DNA of 63,957 bases from NCBI GenBank assembly GCA_937919225.1, contig CALFRH010000405.1, forward strand, positions 1-63,957. The letters run 5' to 3'. The translations under genes were made by a program, and so were the position numbers. The notes under the pieces were generated by a model, which saw only the letters and a program-made list of their open reading frames with translations, searched no databases and was not told the origin of the DNA. Positions 39,928 to 48,850 of this stretch are shown piece by piece (position 1 is the first letter of the stretch; the number at the start of each line of letters is the position of its first letter). The DNA comes from an uncultured Parvularcula sp. GTDB lineage: Bacteria; Pseudomonadota; Alphaproteobacteria; Caulobacterales; Parvularculaceae.

Positions 39928-41751
39928 ATGTTTCTTCTCTATGTGGATCAATCAGATGGGGATTTGGATGCCATCCGCGCCCGCCAGAGCAGAGCCCTCC
40001 TTAAAGACGCCTTTGACGATATTAGCGACACCGCGATCGTCAACGATATAGAGGATATCAGTCGCCTTATTGAGGAGTACCCTGCCCCCCACTCTTGCTT
40101 GACGGTTCCCTTTGGCGAGAAAGCGACAGAACGGGCCGCCAAGAGATTTTTCTGTACCCCCGTTCTGAACGAACGGAAGACTGATCTTCTGAGGTCCCCC
40201 AAAATATTGGCCGCCTTTGTGGTGGGCGGGCCTGAGGGTTTTCGGAAAGATGAAATGGCTATGGTGCCCGTTTCTGGCGGTGCCCCCAAGGCAATGCCCC
40301 CTATCGCTTGGCCCTTCTGGCACGATCCAGCGGTTAAATCATGCCGCCTTAGCTCCCCATCGGCCCATAAACCCATTCACCTGCCGGATACTGATATTCT
40401 CCACGACACAGCTGTTGGTGGGGAAACGGCGGGGACAGGGACAATTTTTGCCGCATCGCCCAATAGCGTCAATGCCCTCACCAGTTTGATAGACGTTTTT
40501 GTCAATGACTTTCGACATTCACCAGAGGCCATTTTACTTCTTTATACCGATGGTTCATCCAGTGATGCCGCGAAGGCTTCAAAACAACGGCTTTCCACCC
40601 TCAGCGATCATGCGTGCCGGATCATCGTTCTGGGGACGAGCGGGAATGACGGCACATTTCTTCATCCGGCCTCGTTCTATATTAAGGGGGATGACGATCA
40701 GGATGATCTGACGGGATATCGTCACTTTTGCGCCCAAGTCCCTCTTATCACACGAGAGGCGTTTGGCGCTAAGGTCGGCCTACCAAACGACTATGCGATG
40801 ACCATTTCCGAAGAGGGGGGACTATCCGCAAAGCTAAAGGATGCCTTCCACATCGCCCAAACGGCTCCTGAAGGATACCACCATCTACGCCGCACCACTG
40901 CCGACAATGCCCGCGATCATTTCTCGATCACACGAACCGTCCAGACTATTCGGTCCGTTATAGGGTCGAGAGAGTTCTCAGAAACACTGCCGCATACCGA
41001 TGACCGGAGATTGCGCGAAGAACATTTTGGAACCATGGTGGGCATTTATGATTATAAGGAAAGTGGGTGGCTGGATCATGAAAACCAGTCCGTGGCCCCC
41101 GGCTTCCCGATCACAAATGGCGATATCGTTGTCGATGTAGGATGCGGCACGGGCGGCTACTCTTATTTCTCTGCTCAATTCGCTGGCGAGATCGTTTACT
41201 GCGATGTTGACTCTACCTCACTAAAGGTGGCCAGTGAGCGGATCGGTTCGGTTGCCACATGTCCCATACGGGGTCTACTGACAACTGGTGAGCAGCTTGA
41301 TATTAACGAAGGCTATGCCGACAAAGTCATCTGCACAGAGGTGCTAGAGCATGTCGACAACCCAAAGCAGGTGATGCAGGAATTATTCCGCATCGGGAAG
41401 CCGGGCGGTCTCTACCTTATCTCCGTGCCGGATACTCTTGGCGAGCGGCTGCAGGAGCCTGTGGCCCCTCCCGGCTATTTCGAAAAACCTAATCATATTC
41501 GAATTTTTGAACGGGAGGAGTTTGCGCGCCTTGTAACCGATGCGGGGTTTGAGATTGTCGACCATCAGTTCAGAGGGTTTCACGCGGTCGTCGAATGGCT
41601 TCTAAAATGGTTTGATAGCCACACGATTGATCATCAGTGGGCCGCCCTATGGAAGAACGTTCTTGATCATCGTCAAGGCGCGAAAACAAAAGCCGTCCTC
41701 GATCGCTATATCGCAAAGTCGCAGACCATCATTGCACGCAAACCTGGATAG
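39928..41751 (+). CDS. Fusion: about 330-aa uncharacterised N-terminal domain plus SAM-dependent methyltransferase
   Basis: C-term VVDVGCGTGGYSYFSAQFAGEIVYCDVDSTSLKVASERIG and CTEVLEHVDNPKQVMQELFRIGKPGGLYLISVPD; N-term not recognised. Confidence 0.8.
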   Translation: MFLLYVDQSDGDLDAIRARQSRALLKDAFDDISDTAIVNDIEDISRLIEEYPAPHSCLTVPFGEKATERAAKRFFCTPVLNERKTDLLRSPKILAAFVVGGPEGFRKDEMAMVPVSGGAPKAMPPIAWPFWHDPAVKSCRLSSPSAHKPIHLPDTDILHDTAVGGETAGTGTIFAASPNSVNALTSLIDVFVNDFRHSPEAILLLYTDGSSSDAAKASKQRLSTLSDHACRIIVLGTSGNDGTFLHPASFYIKGDDDQDDLTGYRHFCAQVPLITREAFGAKVGLPNDYAMTISEEGGLSAKLKDAFHIAQTAPEGYHHLRRTTADNARDHFSITRTVQTIRSVIGSREFSETLPHTDDRRLREEHFGTMVGIYDYKESGWLDHENQSVAPGFPITNGDIVVDVGCGTGGYSYFSAQFAGEIVYCDVDSTSLKVASERIGSVATCPIRGLLTTGEQLDINEGYADKVICTEVLEHVDNPKQVMQELFRIGKPGGLYLISVPDTLGERLQEPVAPPGYFEKPNHIRIFEREEFARLVTDAGFEIVDHQFRGFHAVVEWLLKWFDSHTIDHQWAALWKNVLDHRQGAKTKAVLDRYIAKSQTIIARKPG

Positions 41752-41758
41752 AGGCGCA

Positions 41759-42913
41759 ATGCAATCCCCGGCTCGACGGGCCCACATTGCAGACGTTCAA
41801 GTCTTACGCGCCCTTGCGGTAGGCCTTGTTATCTTCTGGCACCTCAAAACCATCCCAGGCATGGGGCCCCTACTTCCGGCGTCGGTGACGCATTGGTTGA
41901 GTGGTGGCGCGGGGGTTGATCTGTTCTTTGTGATCTCCGGATTTGTGATCGCGAGAAGCCTCATTCCCAGTTTGGAAAATGCCCATCAAGAGCGTCGGCG
42001 ATGGCCGACAGTGGCGGCCTTTTGGGTACGGCGGCTCTTTCGCTTAACCCCGTCAGTGTGGTTTTGGCTCGCCTTTATCTTACTTGGCGCCAGTCTAACG
42101 AGCCGCCCCATCCTGTGGCAAAGTGTTGAAACCAACCTTTGGGCGACACTGAGCGTTGTTTTACACTACGCTAATTTTCGGTTTGCGACCCATTTTATGG
42201 TGGAACCCATCGGAACCTCGTTCCCCTATTGGAGCTTGTCCCTTGAGGAACAGTTTTACTTCCTACTCCCCCTTATCATCCTTGTCACACAACGGCGATG
42301 GCGCCTCACCCTTGTCTTAATCGGTATTATCGCGGTCCAATTTCTCATCACTCGCAATATTCTAGGAATAATGTTTCGAAGTGAAGGGTTGGCCTTGGGC
42401 GTGCTTATCGCCCTTTTCGAAGCAAGCCCCTACCATCGCCGTTGGGAACCAAAATTCCTGAAAAATCCGTATATTGGGCTACCGATCATCATCGGTCTCA
42501 TTTGTTTCATTGTTATGATCGGTTCGCGAAACGCCCAAGATCTCTTTGGGTTAAGTTCTTCAAGATCCTTTAATCTCATCGCATTGGGGAGTTCTATCAT
42601 TGTACTGATCGCAAGCTTCAATGAGGATTATATTTTCCCAAAAGGCAAAGTGCAGACTATTTTATCATGGTTAGGTGACCGGTCTTACGCTCTATATCTC
42701 TGCCATATACCCATTTTCTACCTGTCACTTGAAGTGACCGAATGGCTGCTTCCACCGGACATGGCCTATCAGCCAAAAGGGCTCGTCGCAGTTGGCATAG
42801 CGGTGCCCCTTATGGTCATCGCAAGTCAGCTGAACTACCGATATATTGAGCAACCCCTAACCGCGCGCGGACGAACCATCGCACAGCGCCTTCTTCACCG
42901 CCCCAATAGGTAG
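41759..42913 (+). CDS. Acyltransferase family 3 (OafA/YrhL type)
   Basis: IADVQVLRALAVGLVIFWHLK...GGAGVDLFFVISGFVIARSL; FPYWSLSLEEQFYFLLPL. Confidence 0.93.
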   Translation: MQSPARRAHIADVQVLRALAVGLVIFWHLKTIPGMGPLLPASVTHWLSGGAGVDLFFVISGFVIARSLIPSLENAHQERRRWPTVAAFWVRRLFRLTPSVWFWLAFILLGASLTSRPILWQSVETNLWATLSVVLHYANFRFATHFMVEPIGTSFPYWSLSLEEQFYFLLPLIILVTQRRWRLTLVLIGIIAVQFLITRNILGIMFRSEGLALGVLIALFEASPYHRRWEPKFLKNPYIGLPIIIGLICFIVMIGSRNAQDLFGLSSSRSFNLIALGSSIIVLIASFNEDYIFPKGKVQTILSWLGDRSYALYLCHIPIFYLSLEVTEWLLPPDMAYQPKGLVAVGIAVPLMVIASQLNYRYIEQPLTARGRTIAQRLLHRPNR

Positions 42914-45900
42914 CGCCTCAAACGTCCCCGCGCCGCCTCCGGCAACACATCAAACCAAAACTGAGACAAAGCTCGATTAAACCGTAAACGCCATAATAGA
43001 GGAGCGATGAATCGCCTTAACCCCTTTTGGGACGCATCCCGATGGGACGGAGCAAATAGAGTGGCAAGCGCCTCCTGGGATAAAGATAAAGGAAGAGGCG
43101 TCACCGGGCGCTCCAATCGCGCCGGCACATAATGGTCATCACTATAGTATGCCTGCCCATGGGAGGGTTGTGGCGCCCAAAGCGCGACTTCTCCACCTTT
43201 TTCCGCCAAAACCGAAAGGCAACGCTCTATCTCTTTCAGTTGGCGCGTCGGATCCATATCGTAAGGAAAGTACCATGTATATGGGCGCCCATCCGTACGG
43301 CTTGCAAATGCGCCAATCTTAGGGACCAACAAAGGAACTCCCGCTTCCATGGCGGAGGTCAGGGTATAACTGTAGGTCTCAGGCCATTGGCATGGGAACC
43401 AAATAAGATCTGGCTTCAGTTCTGCGATTTTTTGCTGCAACGCTTCTTCAGTGTAAGGGCCATGGGTGATGACAGAATCATCAAGCACGCGATAGGCATA
43501 GCCAACAAGATGAAACTCGATAGGAAGCCCACGCCTTTTCGCATCAGCGGCGGCCGCTTGAAGCAAGTCTGCTCCTTTTTCTTTGCCCAACGCCCCCAAT
43601 ATCAAAACCCGTTTGGGTTTGTTGGCCTGCCCGTTCTTCACACGAACAGGGGGCAGGCTGGGGATAAGCTCTGTACCGATATGCTCTTGAACCCTGATTT
43701 CAAGATCAGGGTGGACCCCTTTATAAATCGCTGCCGCTTCCAAACTTGGCGTCACAAGAGCTTTGGCCGTTTTGAGCAACGTTTCCTTTAGCGATGAAAA
43801 CTCGTCCTCGCAGGGCCGACCATCTATAAAGTATCGATCAGGATCATACCGCCCCTCACTGTCGATCAAGCTTGGACTAGACCCCAAGAAATAATAATCA
43901 TGAAGCGTGATAAGATGCTCTACGCCAAGTTCATCGAGCAGCTCGGGTGTGAATTTCTCAATCCCTCTTATATGATTGATGTGGACAAGATCGACACCCG
44001 CCGCACGAATACTATCAAACAACTGATCTTTATCGGCTTCAAGATTATATATTTGCGTGTAGGAACTCGCCCAATCGGGGAAAACTAAGCGAACACATTC
44101 ATCCCCTTCAGGTTCAATCCAAAGAAAATTAATCTTTTCTCGGAAGAAATATCGCAACTCATTTATAAAGCGACGCGTCCCCCCTCCCTCACCATGGCCA
44201 ATAATCAAGACAACAGGGAGGTTGCTGGATGATAAAGACTTCAACACCAGTTGAAACCGTACCGGCTTTACCGGATTTTCGACGCAGTAATTCTCAATAA
44301 GGCGGTTATAGCCTGGGTGACGCTTCTCCAACAGCTTGATCGCATAGGCAACACGCGCCTTTTTTTCATCGCCGAAGCTAAGCCCGCCCTCATGATAGAC
44401 GAATATGTTTGTAAGCAGAACATTACGCCACCCTGCATCAGCTGCCCGCCGACAAAAATCGGTCTCTTCACCATAGCCGCGGCCAAATGCTTCTTCGTCA
44501 AAGGGCCCGAACGCATCAAGAGCGGCTCGGGATATGTAAAGGCAGAAACCAACACCGGTAGGAATATCGATTGGTTGCTCCGAAGCCCATTCCTGCACAT
44601 GGTCGTCCATCGACTGAACGTCCATCCCTGGCGGAATTGGGTTCACCTCGCAAAGGTTTGGGTAGGAACAAATTTCTCCATTGTTGGTGAATGGCGTTGC
44701 CGTTGCGATGGATGGGTCAGAGCGAGCGGCCCTTGCCATTCGATCCGCCCACCCCTTTGGCACCTCTGTATCGCTGTTGAGGATAATGACATCATCGGTG
44801 CCCGCGAGAGAAAAACCACGATTAGCGGTTCTCACAAACCCTAGATTTTCGGCGTTTTTGTGAAGCTCGATCAACCCTTTTCGCGACAGAATGTCGAGAT
44901 AGCGCTCAATCCGACCATCAGGGCCACCATCATAGATAACGATCAACCGATATGGAGTTTGGCATTCACTCTCCAAAACGGAGGTAAGGCATTTTTGGAC
45001 GGACTTGAGGCCGGCATAAACGGGGACCACCACCGATAGGCCACCATCCGAAGTCGCGGGGCTATTCCCCATAATTGGGCCAGAAGACGCGCCTTGGGGG
45101 TCGGTGGGTTTGAGAGACGGAAGGGGGTCCCCTGTCACACTATCTGTATTCTCAAAGATAGAAGACCGCTCATCCTCGATTTCATCCAACCAAGATGTGT
45201 TATCTAGTCGAAAACGATCAGCAAACGCATGGTTCTTCGACGTTGCAATTTTTTGATGCTGGGACCCAGCTTCTCTTGCGTCCTCAATCCGGCTTTGTGG
45301 CGTAACGACCTCGACAAAATACCGGATGACCTCCTCCACCGGGCTTTGGGTAAGTTCTTCGTAAACAAGTCTGTGGGGCGTGATGCCATGGTGATCAAAA
45401 AAGCGAAGTAGAGATTTTTCATGCTCCAGAATCTGGTGCAGACAGCGGCGAATGGCCCGCTCGTCATAGAAAAAGGCGCCCTCTGACCGTCGTCGCGTCT
45501 CTGTTGTTGAGTTTACGGTATCGAATACACCCGTGGTCATCATCCGGTTTAATGAGATGGCTTGGGCAACAATATCACGCCGGAACAGCATAAAAGCCCG
45601 CGTCTGATCGACGGGGAAATGGGTGAAGTAATCCGAGGTTTCTTGATCAATGGCGTCGGGCCACAGCGCGTTGAGATCATGCCATGTGATTGTTGCCCCA
45701 TAGACCCCATTGGGTGACTGCCCACGGCCCAAATGAAGTTGAGTATAAGCGTGTACGGAATTTGCATTAATCGATTTTGCAAAGGCGTTGAGCATTGTGG
45801 TGTTAAACCACTCTTCCGGCCACCCCAGAAGGTCCGTAGACCGCAGCAAGTCTCTCAACCAAGACGACCCGGTGCGCGGCGTCATGTAAATCATGTATCG

Positions 45901-45990
45901 AGCGGATGGCGCCTTTACCGCCGCGAGCTCAGACCGAAGCCTGGCCTCGTCGACCTCAATCTTCGCCAACAGTCGATCAAAATGGCTCAT
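42895..45990 (-). CDS. Multidomain Stf0-like sulfotransferase - GT2 glycosyltransferase - GT4/group 1 glycosyltransferase
   Basis: IYMTPRTGSSWLRDLLRSTDLLGWPEEWF; LSVVVPVYAGLKSVQKCLTSVLESECQTPYRLIVIYDGG...IILNSDTEVPKGW; VVLIIGHGEGGGTRRFINELRYF...VLILGALGKEKGADLLQAAAADAKRR. Confidence 0.88.
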   Translation of the reverse strand: MSHFDRLLAKIEVDEARLRSELAAVKAPSARYMIYMTPRTGSSWLRDLLRSTDLLGWPEEWFNTTMLNAFAKSINANSVHAYTQLHLGRGQSPNGVYGATITWHDLNALWPDAIDQETSDYFTHFPVDQTRAFMLFRRDIVAQAISLNRMMTTGVFDTVNSTTETRRRSEGAFFYDERAIRRCLHQILEHEKSLLRFFDHHGITPHRLVYEELTQSPVEEVIRYFVEVVTPQSRIEDAREAGSQHQKIATSKNHAFADRFRLDNTSWLDEIEDERSSIFENTDSVTGDPLPSLKPTDPQGASSGPIMGNSPATSDGGLSVVVPVYAGLKSVQKCLTSVLESECQTPYRLIVIYDGGPDGRIERYLDILSRKGLIELHKNAENLGFVRTANRGFSLAGTDDVIILNSDTEVPKGWADRMARAARSDPSIATATPFTNNGEICSYPNLCEVNPIPPGMDVQSMDDHVQEWASEQPIDIPTGVGFCLYISRAALDAFGPFDEEAFGRGYGEETDFCRRAADAGWRNVLLTNIFVYHEGGLSFGDEKKARVAYAIKLLEKRHPGYNRLIENYCVENPVKPVRFQLVLKSLSSSNLPVVLIIGHGEGGGTRRFINELRYFFREKINFLWIEPEGDECVRLVFPDWASSYTQIYNLEADKDQLFDSIRAAGVDLVHINHIRGIEKFTPELLDELGVEHLITLHDYYFLGSSPSLIDSEGRYDPDRYFIDGRPCEDEFSSLKETLLKTAKALVTPSLEAAAIYKGVHPDLEIRVQEHIGTELIPSLPPVRVKNGQANKPKRVLILGALGKEKGADLLQAAAADAKRRGLPIEFHLVGYAYRVLDDSVITHGPYTEEALQQKIAELKPDLIWFPCQWPETYSYTLTSAMEAGVPLLVPKIGAFASRTDGRPYTWYFPYDMDPTRQLKEIERCLSVLAEKGGEVALWAPQPSHGQAYYSDDHYVPARLERPVTPLPLSLSQEALATLFAPSHRDASQKGLRRFIAPLLWRLRFNRALSQFWFDVLPEAARGRLRRYLLGR

Positions 45991-46066: not shown

Positions 46067-46975
46067 CTACGCCTTATTGACCATCCAGGTGAGCGTGTCC
46101 TCTAGGCCAAACTGACGATAGGATCCGATCATCGCCTCTAGCGGTCCTGGGTCTCCTACGAGCCGAATGATGTCCTGTTTTCTCACAAATGCAGGGTTTA
46201 TTCTTACTTCTAGTCGATGCGATGTGATTCGCTCAATAAGCGCGAGCACTTCTTTGAGGGCATAGGCGGTTCCCGACGCAATATTGACGGTCGCACCACT
46301 GTGAGGCGACTGCGCCAGGCGTAGGTAAGCCAGCACAACATCCCGCACGTCAGAAAAATCCCTTACAATGTCAGTGTTACCAAGCTCAATGAATGGCTTT
46401 CGCTCAACGGCATGGGAAATGATCTTTGGAACAAGGAAGTGATCGGCTTGCCCTAAGCCGGTATAGTTGAAAGGCCGCGTGATGATGATGGGAAGACGGT
46501 CTTGATAGGTCCGCGCCATGAACTCCATGCTGACCTTGCTACAGCCATAATGGTTGATAGGCGCAATGGGATGGTCAATCGTTACGCACGCCGTCTTTGG
46601 GTCACCATAAACGTTGGCACTACTGGCAATGACGACTTTTTCAAGCGTGTCTTGATGATGCTGGAGCGCTGATAGCAAGCGCTGCGTGTAAACCGTATTG
46701 ACATCATAGAACGCCGAAGCATCTGCATGCGGTACAAATGAAATCGCGGCGAGATGGAAGACGTAATGAGGCCGAATGCGGTCGAACAATTGACCGAGGG
46801 CCGCTTCATCACTCAGATCCGCAACAATATCGTTCGACCCGGTGACCGAACCACTGGACTGATGAACAAAGGCATGCACCTCAATGCCATGCTCGGCCAA
46901 CAAATGGCACAAAAAGCGGCCGGTGAACCCATTCGCCCCTGTGACCACCGCCCGTTTAACGGTTGCGTTAGACAC
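46067..46975 (-). CDS. rmd: NAD-dependent epimerase/dehydratase, probable GDP-6-deoxy-D-lyxo-4-hexulose (4-keto-6-deoxymannose) reductase
   Basis: [37 protein letters not shown] motif; overlaps the end of gmd. Confidence 0.75.
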
Positions 46976-47996
46976 GTTGACGCCTAACAATGTCTTGAGC
47001 CACCATCATCGAGCTTAACTCCTCCAATGAGGTTTTGGTGGCCCACCCCATCACCTTTTGGGCCTTTGATGGATCGCCGACCAATAGATCAACCTCCGCA
47101 GGTCGATAATATTGTGGATTGATACGCACCAAAGGACGGCCGGTCCCTGCGTCGATACCGACCTCATCCTCCCCGCTTCCCTGCCACGTTAGTTCGATAT
47201 CCGCTGCCTGAAAGGAAAGCTCCACGAAAGAGCGTACGGTTTCCGTCCTCCCCGTTGCCAGAACAAATGTGTCAGGATCATCAAGCTGCATCATCTGCCA
47301 CATGCCAACGACATATTCAGCAGCATACCCCCAATCCCGACGAGCGTCGAGATTGCCAAGTTCTAACACCTCAACTTGCCCCAGTTTAATCCCAGCCACC
47401 GCGTCGGTGATCTTCCGGGTGACAAATTCACGCCCCCGCAATGGTGACTCATGATTAAAAAGAATACCGCTTGTCGCAAAGATATTGTAGGACTCGCGGT
47501 AGTTTACCGTCGTCCAATGCGCAAAGAGCTTTGAGACACCATAGGGGCTACGCGGATAAAAAGGGGTCTCCTCCCCTTGGGGAACAGCCTGAACCAACCC
47601 GAACATCTCAGATGTTGATGCCTGGTAGAAGCGAATATCTTTATTCACAATACGGATCGCTTCAAGCATATGAAGAGCGCCGCGGCCAGTGATGTCAGCG
47701 GTCGTGATCGGCTGCTCAAAAGAAGTTTGAACAAAGCTCTGGGCAGCCAAATTGTAGACCTCATCAGGCTTGATGGAATCCAGCAACCTGATGGAAGAGC
47801 TTAAATCGGTCAGGTCATGATCGACTAATGTCAGATTCTCATGCCCGAGGGCCGACACTTCTTCTAAACGCCAGAAATTAGGTGCGCTGACACGTCGATG
47901 CGCACCATAAACGCGGTATCCTTTATCTAACAAAAGACGCGCTAGATAAGCGCCATCCTGTCCTGTAACCCCCGTCACAAAAGCCGACTTTGTCAT
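46968..47996 (-). CDS. gmd: GDP-mannose 4,6-dehydratase
   Basis: [71 protein letters not shown]. Confidence 0.93.
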
Positions 47997-48052
47997 CGGA
48001 AAATCCCCAGTTTCAATAATGCAATTTATGCGCTGCCATGAAGGCGGCAACC

Positions 48053-48850
48053 CTATCGGTGAAAACCATATTCCTCAGCCAAGTCACCGAAAATCCCCCA
48101 TGCAATTTCGATATCCTCCGCTGGAAGAACAGTTTTGTATTTGTTTTTCTCCGGCTTGATCTTCGTTAAGTCATAGGTCACTTGACGCGAATCTTCCCCA
48201 AGAAACGCCATGACACGGCCAAGTTCTTTTTCTGGATTTTGAGTGAACTGATCATAAGTGATCTCAAGCAACCGGTCCCCCACAACATCGCGCATCGACT
48301 TCATGATGAGCGTGCTTTCGTACCAGTAATTCGCTGCGCCCACGACCTCTTTAATCACCATCACCTTCGACGTCCGAAGGCTGGACACCACATTTAACGG
48401 ATGCCTGACAATATGGACAAAGCGGGATTCTGGAAACTCCGCCGCGAGAAGCAGTGCACCAAAGACATTCTGGGGTGTTTTGTCGAACCAGCGGGCATCC
48501 TTAGGGGCGCCCTGCGCATTTAGATATGCCGCTGCATAATTCTCCATCAACTCCCGTCGAGTATGGGATTTGACAAGAATTTGATCCCGAAAATAATCGT
48601 CCGATATCGTATCAAGTCGGCGATGCTCTTGAAAGAGTTTTTGGTTAATCAATGGACGAACATATGTCATCGTGCCGTAAGGGTCGGCAAACCGAAAAAA
48701 ATGTGTCTCGTTAGGGCAAAAGAGCCTTGGGTGCGAGGCGATGACATCGCGCAACATCGTTGTGCCCGAGCGTACGGAGCCCAAGATAAAAAATGGCGGT
48801 GCTTTTTCGTGGTGTCCCCTTTTATCCCCTCGATTGGCTAAATCACTCAC
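48053..48850 (-). CDS. Sulfotransferase family protein
   Basis: [34 protein letters not shown] (5'-phosphosulfate loop); [16 protein letters not shown]. Confidence 0.88.

Follow-up and report, generated by a model that had tools for sequence, protein, structure and literature searches.

WbbB of Klebsiella O12 and Raoultella is a trifunctional O-antigen enzyme in which a Kdo-adding GT99 domain lies N-terminal to the polymerising glycosyltransferases, and in known systems a carbohydrate-binding domain of the exporter reads a Kdo or methyl-phosphate mark. Sulfated surface polysaccharides occur in many marine bacteria and, to our knowledge, little is known of how bacteria coordinate sulfation and chain assembly. 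The two C-terminal glycosyltransferases of WbbB polymerise and GT99 terminates (PMC9587256, PMC11231755); a coiled-coil ruler carries known terminators at its far end (PMC11231755).

The window analysed here, a 63,957-nucleotide stretch of DNA from an uncultured Parvularcula sp., encodes a protein in which an Stf0-type sulfotransferase is joined to a GT2-GTB core (Table 1). An earlier note, made from the letters alone, had described one 1031-aa ORF here, leaving out its strand; the ORF was found to have that extent, uninterrupted, and to lie on the minus strand, with a start ATG at 45990, a stop at 42895, 0 internal stops and even GC3 (codon position) over the domain junctions. The motifs that it quoted were found where it had placed them, and both Pfam and the predicted structure agreed with its assignment of Stf0, GT2 and GT-B to a single chain, with PF09037 (Stf0) and PF00535 (GT2) scoring above cut-off and PF00534 (GT-B) below.

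Table 1. Features of the fusion gene and of the surrounding island, in window positions
Feature	Position	Strand	Basis
1031-aa ORF, Stf0 sulfotransferase - GT2 - GT-B fusion	42895..45990	-	ORF calling and Pfam
Stf0 sulfotransferase domain, aa ~28-275	45166..45909	-	PF09037, profile, model
PAPS 5'-phosphosulfate-binding loop region, aa 35-46	45853..45888	-	alignment with Stf0 loop
Glu60	45811..45813	-	invariant in alignment A1
3'-phosphate-binding strand-turn-helix, aa 134-150	45541..45591	-	alignment A1
Short Pro/Ser/Gly-rich linker, aa 276-316 (~41 aa)	45043..45165	-	composition, heptad score, model
GT2 domain, aa ~317-590	44221..45042	-	PF00535, core model, motif alignment
GT-B domain, aa ~593-932	43195..44214	-	PF00534, Foldseek, alignment with WbbB-type proteins
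Basic amphipathic C-terminal helices, aa 985-1031	42898..43038	-	alignment, model
SDR reductase, GDP-4-keto-6-deoxyhexose reductase-like	46067..46990	-	PDB 4lw8 3e-65, 2pk3 2.8e-36, 6x3b 3.4e-26
GDP-mannose 4,6-dehydratase (gmd)	46968..48050	-	TIGR01472 463 bits vs cut-off 415
Second, different sulfotransferase (Sulfotransfer_3)	48053..48850	-	PF13469 2.3e-31; PDB 4gox/4gbm and TPST
GT-B glycosyltransferase-like, 515 aa	48853..50400	-	PF13692 1.2e-4, below cut-off
Acyltransferase family 3, convergent neighbour	41612..42913	+	PF01757 6e-33
607-aa protein, C-terminal class I methyltransferase	39928..41751	+	PF08241 4.1e-17
GT-B glycosyltransferase-like, 507 aa	38404..39927	+	PF00534 1.2e-5, just below cut-off

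The domain search proposed in that note identified the N-terminus as an Stf0 sulfotransferase (PF09037, aa 32-263, E=3.2e-21, 76.4 bits against a cut-off of 22), and the Stf0-subfamily profile A1 matched M. smegmatis Stf0 (1TEX) at 1.9e-14. In the AlphaFold model this part, with pLDDT mostly 80-97, adopts the Stf0 fold (Foldseek to 1TEX, E 3.7e-8, TM 0.67 by target). Residues T37, P38, R39 and G41-S43 of the PAPS loop region and R137, I140, Q143, S146 and L147 of the 3'-phosphate region were invariant in alignment A1, and Glu60 aligns with the Glu of the Stf0 PxEFF motif, the proposed catalytic base. With R39, E60, R137 and S146 all kept, the PAPS loop Arg, the catalytic Glu position and the 3'-phosphate motif are present. 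The earlier association of the domain with Stf0 stands as to family. No sign of trehalose as its substrate was seen: the trehalose 2-sulfotransferase model NF047724 scored 46.8 bits, far short of its cut-off of 400.

The GT2 domain (PF00535, aa 319-445, E=3.9e-14, 53.4 bits against a cut-off of 23.3) retains an NxD motif (N405-S-D407) and a GYGEETD motif at 505-511. It came out poorly in the full-length AlphaFold run with its mixed alignment; the core was modelled alone and, given its own alignment, showed GT2 at high pLDDT. For the third domain the GT-B assignment held and the GT4 label fell short of Pfam's curated threshold, the GT-B/GT4-like match of PF00534 at aa 783-895 (E=6.5e-5) reaching 23.0 bits where the cut-off is 26.4. 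In its motif WPETYSYTLTS, E871 is the first Glu of E-x7-E and the second is replaced by Ser (S879). The fusion model's other Foldseek matches were to structures of GT4 enzymes, PglA and BshA among them; a fold search with the core gave GalNAc transferases and RmlT as best matches, at a low coverage from which no specificity is read. Model confidence fell below pLDDT 50 over aa 292-327, and a crude heptad score detected no coiled-coil or heptad segment in the protein.

Comparison with WbbB-type proteins gave the core a characterised relative. Residues 313-916 of the window protein matched a 1188-aa GT99-GT2-GTB protein, encoded beside genes for an ABC transporter and for a GT2, with 232/622 identities (37%, E=8e-134), a level of identity from which neither the sugars nor polymerisation can be deduced. 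A plasmid WbbB-type ortholog, whose GT99 part matches crystallised WbbB (5FA0) at 3.6e-64, aligns to the window protein through the C-terminal tail, and the helices at aa 985-1031, probably a membrane anchor, resemble its tail. Judged by these alignments, the GT2-GTB core and the polymerising half of WbbB-type proteins are homologous. GT99 (PF21912) had no match in the window protein, and Stf0 occupies that place. The earlier note knew of no characterised example; this holds for the whole fusion as far as the literature searched shows, in which no characterised Stf0-GT fusion was found, but the core does have a characterised relative in the WbbB polymerase.

A survey of fusion architectures, also proposed earlier, recovered the same parts in other arrangements. 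Thermopetrobacter sp. TC1 (L092/L115) encodes a GT2-GTB-Stf0 fusion whose Stf0 lies in a different, supported clade, indicating that this fusion arose independently. In Parvularcula mediterranea, of the same genus, Stf0 and GT2-GTB are separate, overlapping genes, and in several Rhodobacterales they are neighbours, including in annotated plasmid capsule clusters that carry ABC exporter genes. A GT2-GTB gene lay within 8 kb in 15/21 close Stf0 relatives compared to 1/14 distant ones (Fisher p=3e-4), and among 43 Stf0 genomes a close core homologue was present in all 4 with a close Stf0 relative compared to 1/39 of the others (p=4e-5); in a less selected Rhodobacteraceae sample the core gene was nearby in 3/12 close Stf0 relatives and 0/8 controls, which was not significant. 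Querying the genome contigs with the single protein gave no relative, whereas the Stf0-subfamily alignment gave 35 loci; a phage collection yielded one weak GT2-only match. The searches turned up no further protein with the domain order Stf0-GT2-GTB, and no close relatives of the window's other island genes were seen beside Stf0/GT pairs. Three further long frames were rejected: in 1388-aa (G116, L037) and 682-aa (G114, L093) Stf0 "fusions" the upstream part looks like a stop-free non-coding high-GC frame before a normal Stf0 start, and a spurious 1153-aa frame (L124) overlaps the GT gene. Together, the domain matches and two further genomic arrangements of the same parts place the architecture far beyond chance.

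The island is low in GC and carries further sugar genes. Neither Wzm/Wzt nor a polymerase, flippase or exporter belonging to it was found in the island. The source bin, which is fragmented and slightly contaminated (5.7%), contains a Wzt with a C-terminal carbohydrate-binding domain (Wzt_C) on a separate 3.6-kb contig (C323). It also encodes an APS kinase, an enzyme required for PAPS.

We consider it somewhat probable that this is a dual-glycosyltransferase polymerase of the WbbB type, with Stf0 in place of the GT99 beta-Kdo terminator and sulfating the nascent chain in cis, giving a sulfated O-polysaccharide or capsule. The C-terminal amphipathic helices would hold it at the inner membrane, where GT2 and GT-B may alternately add two sugars to a lipid-linked chain to build a disaccharide-repeat polysaccharide; Stf0, on its short flexible linker, would move sulfate from PAPS onto this chain in the cytoplasm, and we infer that an ABC transporter would export the sulfated product afterwards. 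Three domains in one chain, the PAPS and NxD motifs, the WbbB-type core and the recurrent linkage of Stf0 with GT2-GTB are consistent with such an enzyme, as are the APS kinase and Wzt of the bin and the sugar genes of the low-GC island, and recurrent fusion and neighbourhood lend support to the coupling of sugar transfer and sulfation that the earlier note suggested. Against the proposal stand the Ser in place of the second Glu of E-x7-E, the lack of a second Stf0-GT2-GTB protein, the low share of linked genes (3/12) in the less selected Rhodobacteraceae sample and the lack of Wzm/Wzt in the island, the Wzt being on a separate contig of a contaminated bin, as does A. salmonicida, where a different sulfotransferase gene adjoins wbbB and yet the O-antigen has no visible sulfate (PMC4483657).

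Sulfate might instead cap the chain, with Stf0 as a terminator whose terminal sulfate blocks extension and is read by the exporter's carbohydrate-binding domain. Stf0 stands where WbbB has GT99, methyltransferases hold the same position in other GT2-GTB proteins (Comamonas, Hirschia) and the bin has a Wzt with a C-terminal binding domain. However, the ruler of known terminators (PMC11231755) was not found and the linker is only ~41 aa, while the Hirschia protein, a same-order protein (G062) and plasmid WbbB do show ruler-like segments by the same crude heptad score; the Thermopetrobacter fusion carries Stf0 at the other end. We regard capping as unlikely, and it is slightly more doubtful that sulfate, through a domain replacing the WbbB Kdo terminator, is both the chain-terminating and the export-licensing mark of an ABC-transporter-dependent pathway; no sulfotransferase acting as a terminator was found in the literature searched. 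As no ruler was found, we prefer a model in which repeats are sulfated while the chain grows to one of length-controlled capping.

There is likewise a small chance that no polymer is made, the two glycosyltransferases supplying a lipid or protein acceptor with one or two sugars before sulfation. Small glycolipids are the substrates of known Stf0 and NodH-type enzymes (PMC11625862), the island lacks its own polymerase, flippase and exporter, and its neighbouring genes look capable of methyl and acyl addition, but the core is closely related to WbbB with a tail common to both, and the Rhodobacterales pairs sit in capsule and ABC exporter clusters. That adjacent genes were joined by stop loss or misassembly, meaning no more than co-expression, is very improbable: the order is known from one example, the same genus has unfused neighbours and the bin is fragmented and slightly contaminated, but there is no stop or frame break, the motifs are intact, codon composition is even over the junctions and a second, independent fusion exists in the opposite order.

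The preferred reading, of a polymerase that sulfates its own growing chain, suggests that some bacteria couple surface sugar-chain building directly to sulfation. If true, it would extend to sulfate the modular WbbB/WbdD scheme, so far comprising Kdo, methyl and methyl-phosphate. A polymerase with its own sulfotransferase, together with the unfused pair in Rhodobacterales capsule plasmids, offers a testable system for distinguishing sulfation of repeats from that of the chain end, and possibly a one-protein tool for producing sulfated glycans.

Among described systems, mycobacterial Stf0 (PF09037) shares the PAPS loop, catalytic Glu position, 3'-phosphate motif and fold, although the window domain is 18% identical to 1TEX in the structural match and, unlike mycobacterial trehalose 2-sulfotransferase, is part of a glycosyltransferase fusion. 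The Thermopetrobacter fusion has all three domains of the window protein, GT2 being 43% and Stf0 33% identical, in reversed order, with its Stf0 in a different clade. A modifier N-terminal to a two-glycosyltransferase core also occurs in the methyltransferase-...-GT2-GTB proteins of surface-polysaccharide clusters on Comamonas and Hirschia plasmids and in K. pneumoniae O7 ORF6 (methyltransferase-kinase-coiled coil-GT2-GT2, PMC11231755); in these the modifier is a methyltransferase and the middle region is long. WbbB of Raoultella terrigena and Klebsiella pneumoniae O12 resembles the window protein in its GT2-GTB core (37% over 622 aa), its N-terminal modifying domain and its basic C-terminal tail, and differs in having GT99 rather than Stf0, in the coiled-coil ruler that a crude predictor did not find here, and in its setting, the window island having gmd and a GDP-hexulose reductase-like gene and lacking rml and Wzm/Wzt.

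The fusion is real: a single open reading frame of 1031 aa, with no internal stops, occupies positions 42895-45990 on the minus strand of the window, and across its domain junctions the frame is unbroken and codon-position GC does not shift. Together with a Pfam domain search, this bore out the earlier note's claim of a sulfotransferase, a GT2 and a GT-B domain in one chain (features listed below). The Stf0 domain gave a high-confidence AlphaFold model, and solved Stf0 1TEX was matched both by Foldseek and by a profile built from five relatives (1.9e-14); the GT2 domain was modelled well once the alignment was restricted to the GT2-GTB core (aa 313-916). For the GT4 label, Foldseek returned many GT4 structures but the Pfam score lay under the curated cut-off. 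No characterised Stf0- or sulfotransferase-glycosyltransferase fusion was found in the partial literature searched, within which the earlier claim of no characterised example held; the domain kinds are already known, and their combination and recurrence were not found described within the same literature.

Features of the fusion protein and of the island that encodes it
Feature	Position	Strand	Remarks
Stf0 domain	aa 32-263		Pfam 3.2e-21
PAPS loop TPRTGSS	aa 37-43		Kept in Stf0 domain
E60	aa 60		Stf0 domain; aligns with Glu proposed as Stf0 catalytic base
3'-phosphate motif RRDIVAQAIS	aa 137-146		Kept in Stf0 domain
GT2 domain	aa 319-445		Pfam 3.9e-14
GT-B/GT4-like region	aa 783-895		Pfam 6.5e-5
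SDR	Upstream of fusion gene	minus	Close to GDP-4-keto-6-deoxyhexose reductases
GDP-mannose 4,6-dehydratase	Upstream of fusion gene	minus	
Second sulfotransferase	48053-48850, upstream of fusion gene	minus	Sulfotransfer_3; best solved relatives 4gox, 4gbm
GT-B protein	Upstream of fusion gene	minus	
Acyltransferase, methyltransferase protein, GT-B protein, FkbM methyltransferase	Island	plus	

The fusion gene sits within a ~12-kb island (38-50 kb of the window) of GC near 0.50-0.53, compared with about 0.54-0.63 in the rest of the window. From its gene content we infer that the product of the island is probably a decorated glycan containing a GDP-derived 6-deoxyhexose. This glycan may bear two kinds of sulfate, since the second sulfotransferase is of a different family; an APS kinase is encoded in the bin. 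No exporter or Wzy was seen within the island. A separate 3.6-kb contig of the bin (C323) encodes a Wzt that ends in a carbohydrate-binding domain at its C-terminus (L205, 1643-2944, plus strand); it is a possible exporter for the island glycan. The bin, of one genus with Parvularcula mediterranea, comprises 695 contigs totalling 5.4 Mb, with contamination put at 5.7%, against relatives near 3 Mb; it is possibly mixed, and the contig's host is therefore not certain.

Few genomes encoded Stf0 proteins: 15 of the 385 from the class and 25 of the 398 from the order, with nearly every match inside a short open frame. The Stf0-GT2-GTB fusion was absent from all 149 relatives searched. The nearest Stf0 relatives (30-36% identity) were those of G1053 (labelled Maritalea mobilis), Hyphomonas sp. 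TMED17 (G773), Thermopetrobacter (G864) and P. mediterranea (G009). In P. mediterranea, a 1011-aa X-GT2-GTB gene and a 320-aa Stf0 ORF overlap at the end of the former, and the Stf0 and GT2-GTB genes of G1053 are arranged tail to tail. Close core homologues occurred in 4/4 genomes with the nearest Stf0 relatives compared with 1/39 other Stf0 genomes (Fisher p=4e-5, with E-value thresholds picked afterwards and genomes related to one another). Among named GTDB genomes, a GT2-GTB gene lay ≤8 kb from 15 of 21 close-Stf0 loci, three of these 15 having served as core-profile seeds, and from 1 of 14 distant-Stf0 loci; linkage was weaker in a less selected Rhodobacteraceae sample (3/12 close, 0/8 controls). 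RTX calcium-binding and DUF2793 proteins adjoin some pairs (L126:4608-7958, plus; L113:5915-9196, minus). TMED17 has two copies of Stf0 and two of GT2-GTB, lying on separate contigs and scoring identically in the match (L111, L112; C2, C14), which probably reflects duplicated contigs in the MAG; its GT2-GTB gene contains an in-frame TAG.

Thermopetrobacter sp. TC1 carries the same three domains in reversed order (GT2-GTB-Stf0, a 981-aa frame, L092:8810-11755, minus). Its Stf0 fell in a supported clade excluding that of the window, in a tree whose deep branches were weak, and given this separation and the reversed order the two fusions look independent. A 1067-aa TPR-GT4-Stf0 fusion was seen in another family of the class (G295, L040:6617-9820, plus).

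The core matched large glycosyltransferases from enterobacterial O-antigen-type loci on annotated plasmids. The window protein also aligns to an 1188-aa GT99-GT2-GTB protein (Pfam) whose gene neighbours encode an ABC transporter and a GT2. This alignment begins at the GT2 domain (232/622 identities, E=8e-134), and its 37% identity is too low for sugar or linkage assignment. A plasmid ortholog matched crystallised WbbB (5FA0) at 3.6e-64. In WbbB the two C-terminal GTs polymerise the chain and GT99 terminates it (PMC9587256, PMC11231755). Methyltransferases stand N-terminal to this core in other proteins, and one from Rhodospirillum rubrum is without an N-terminal modifier. Judged from core homology and these other modifiers, the window protein is thus of the WbbB-type scheme, with Stf0 in the N-terminal slot held by GT99 in WbbB. 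The gene for a WbbB-type protein looks split on E. coli plasmid pEM20-18-50_5 (L199:4674-8238, plus): its product lacks the first ~95 GT99 residues, and a 309-bp ORF lies directly upstream.

In Rhodobacterales, plasmid-borne clusters that hold an Stf0/GT2-GTB pair also contain genes for capsule export and nucleotide sugars, which supports a surface polysaccharide as the likely product. On Tateyamaria plasmid pDOK1-4-7 (L196) the pair accompanies capsule export and dTDP-rhamnose genes, with more sulfotransferases nearby, and on Thioclava plasmid p5 (L201) capsule export and GDP-mannose genes. In Aeromonas salmonicida a sulfotransferase gene adjoins wbbB, yet the O-antigen is without detected sulfate (PMC4483657), which urges caution in reading such neighbours as O-antigen sulfation.

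In known systems chain length is set by a coiled coil, with the terminator at its far end (PMC11231755); Stf0 might likewise cap the chain under length control. By a crude heptad score, however, the coiled-coil-like segment present in the plasmid WbbB, as in Hirschia and G062 proteins, was not found in the window protein, which has only a 41-aa linker rich in Pro, Ser and Gly. This favours sulfation in cis over length-controlled capping, in which case Stf0 would sulfate the chain as it is extended, close to the GT2 site. The likeness to the plasmid WbbB-type ortholog extends to its basic amphipathic C-terminal tail, which aligns with that of the window protein.
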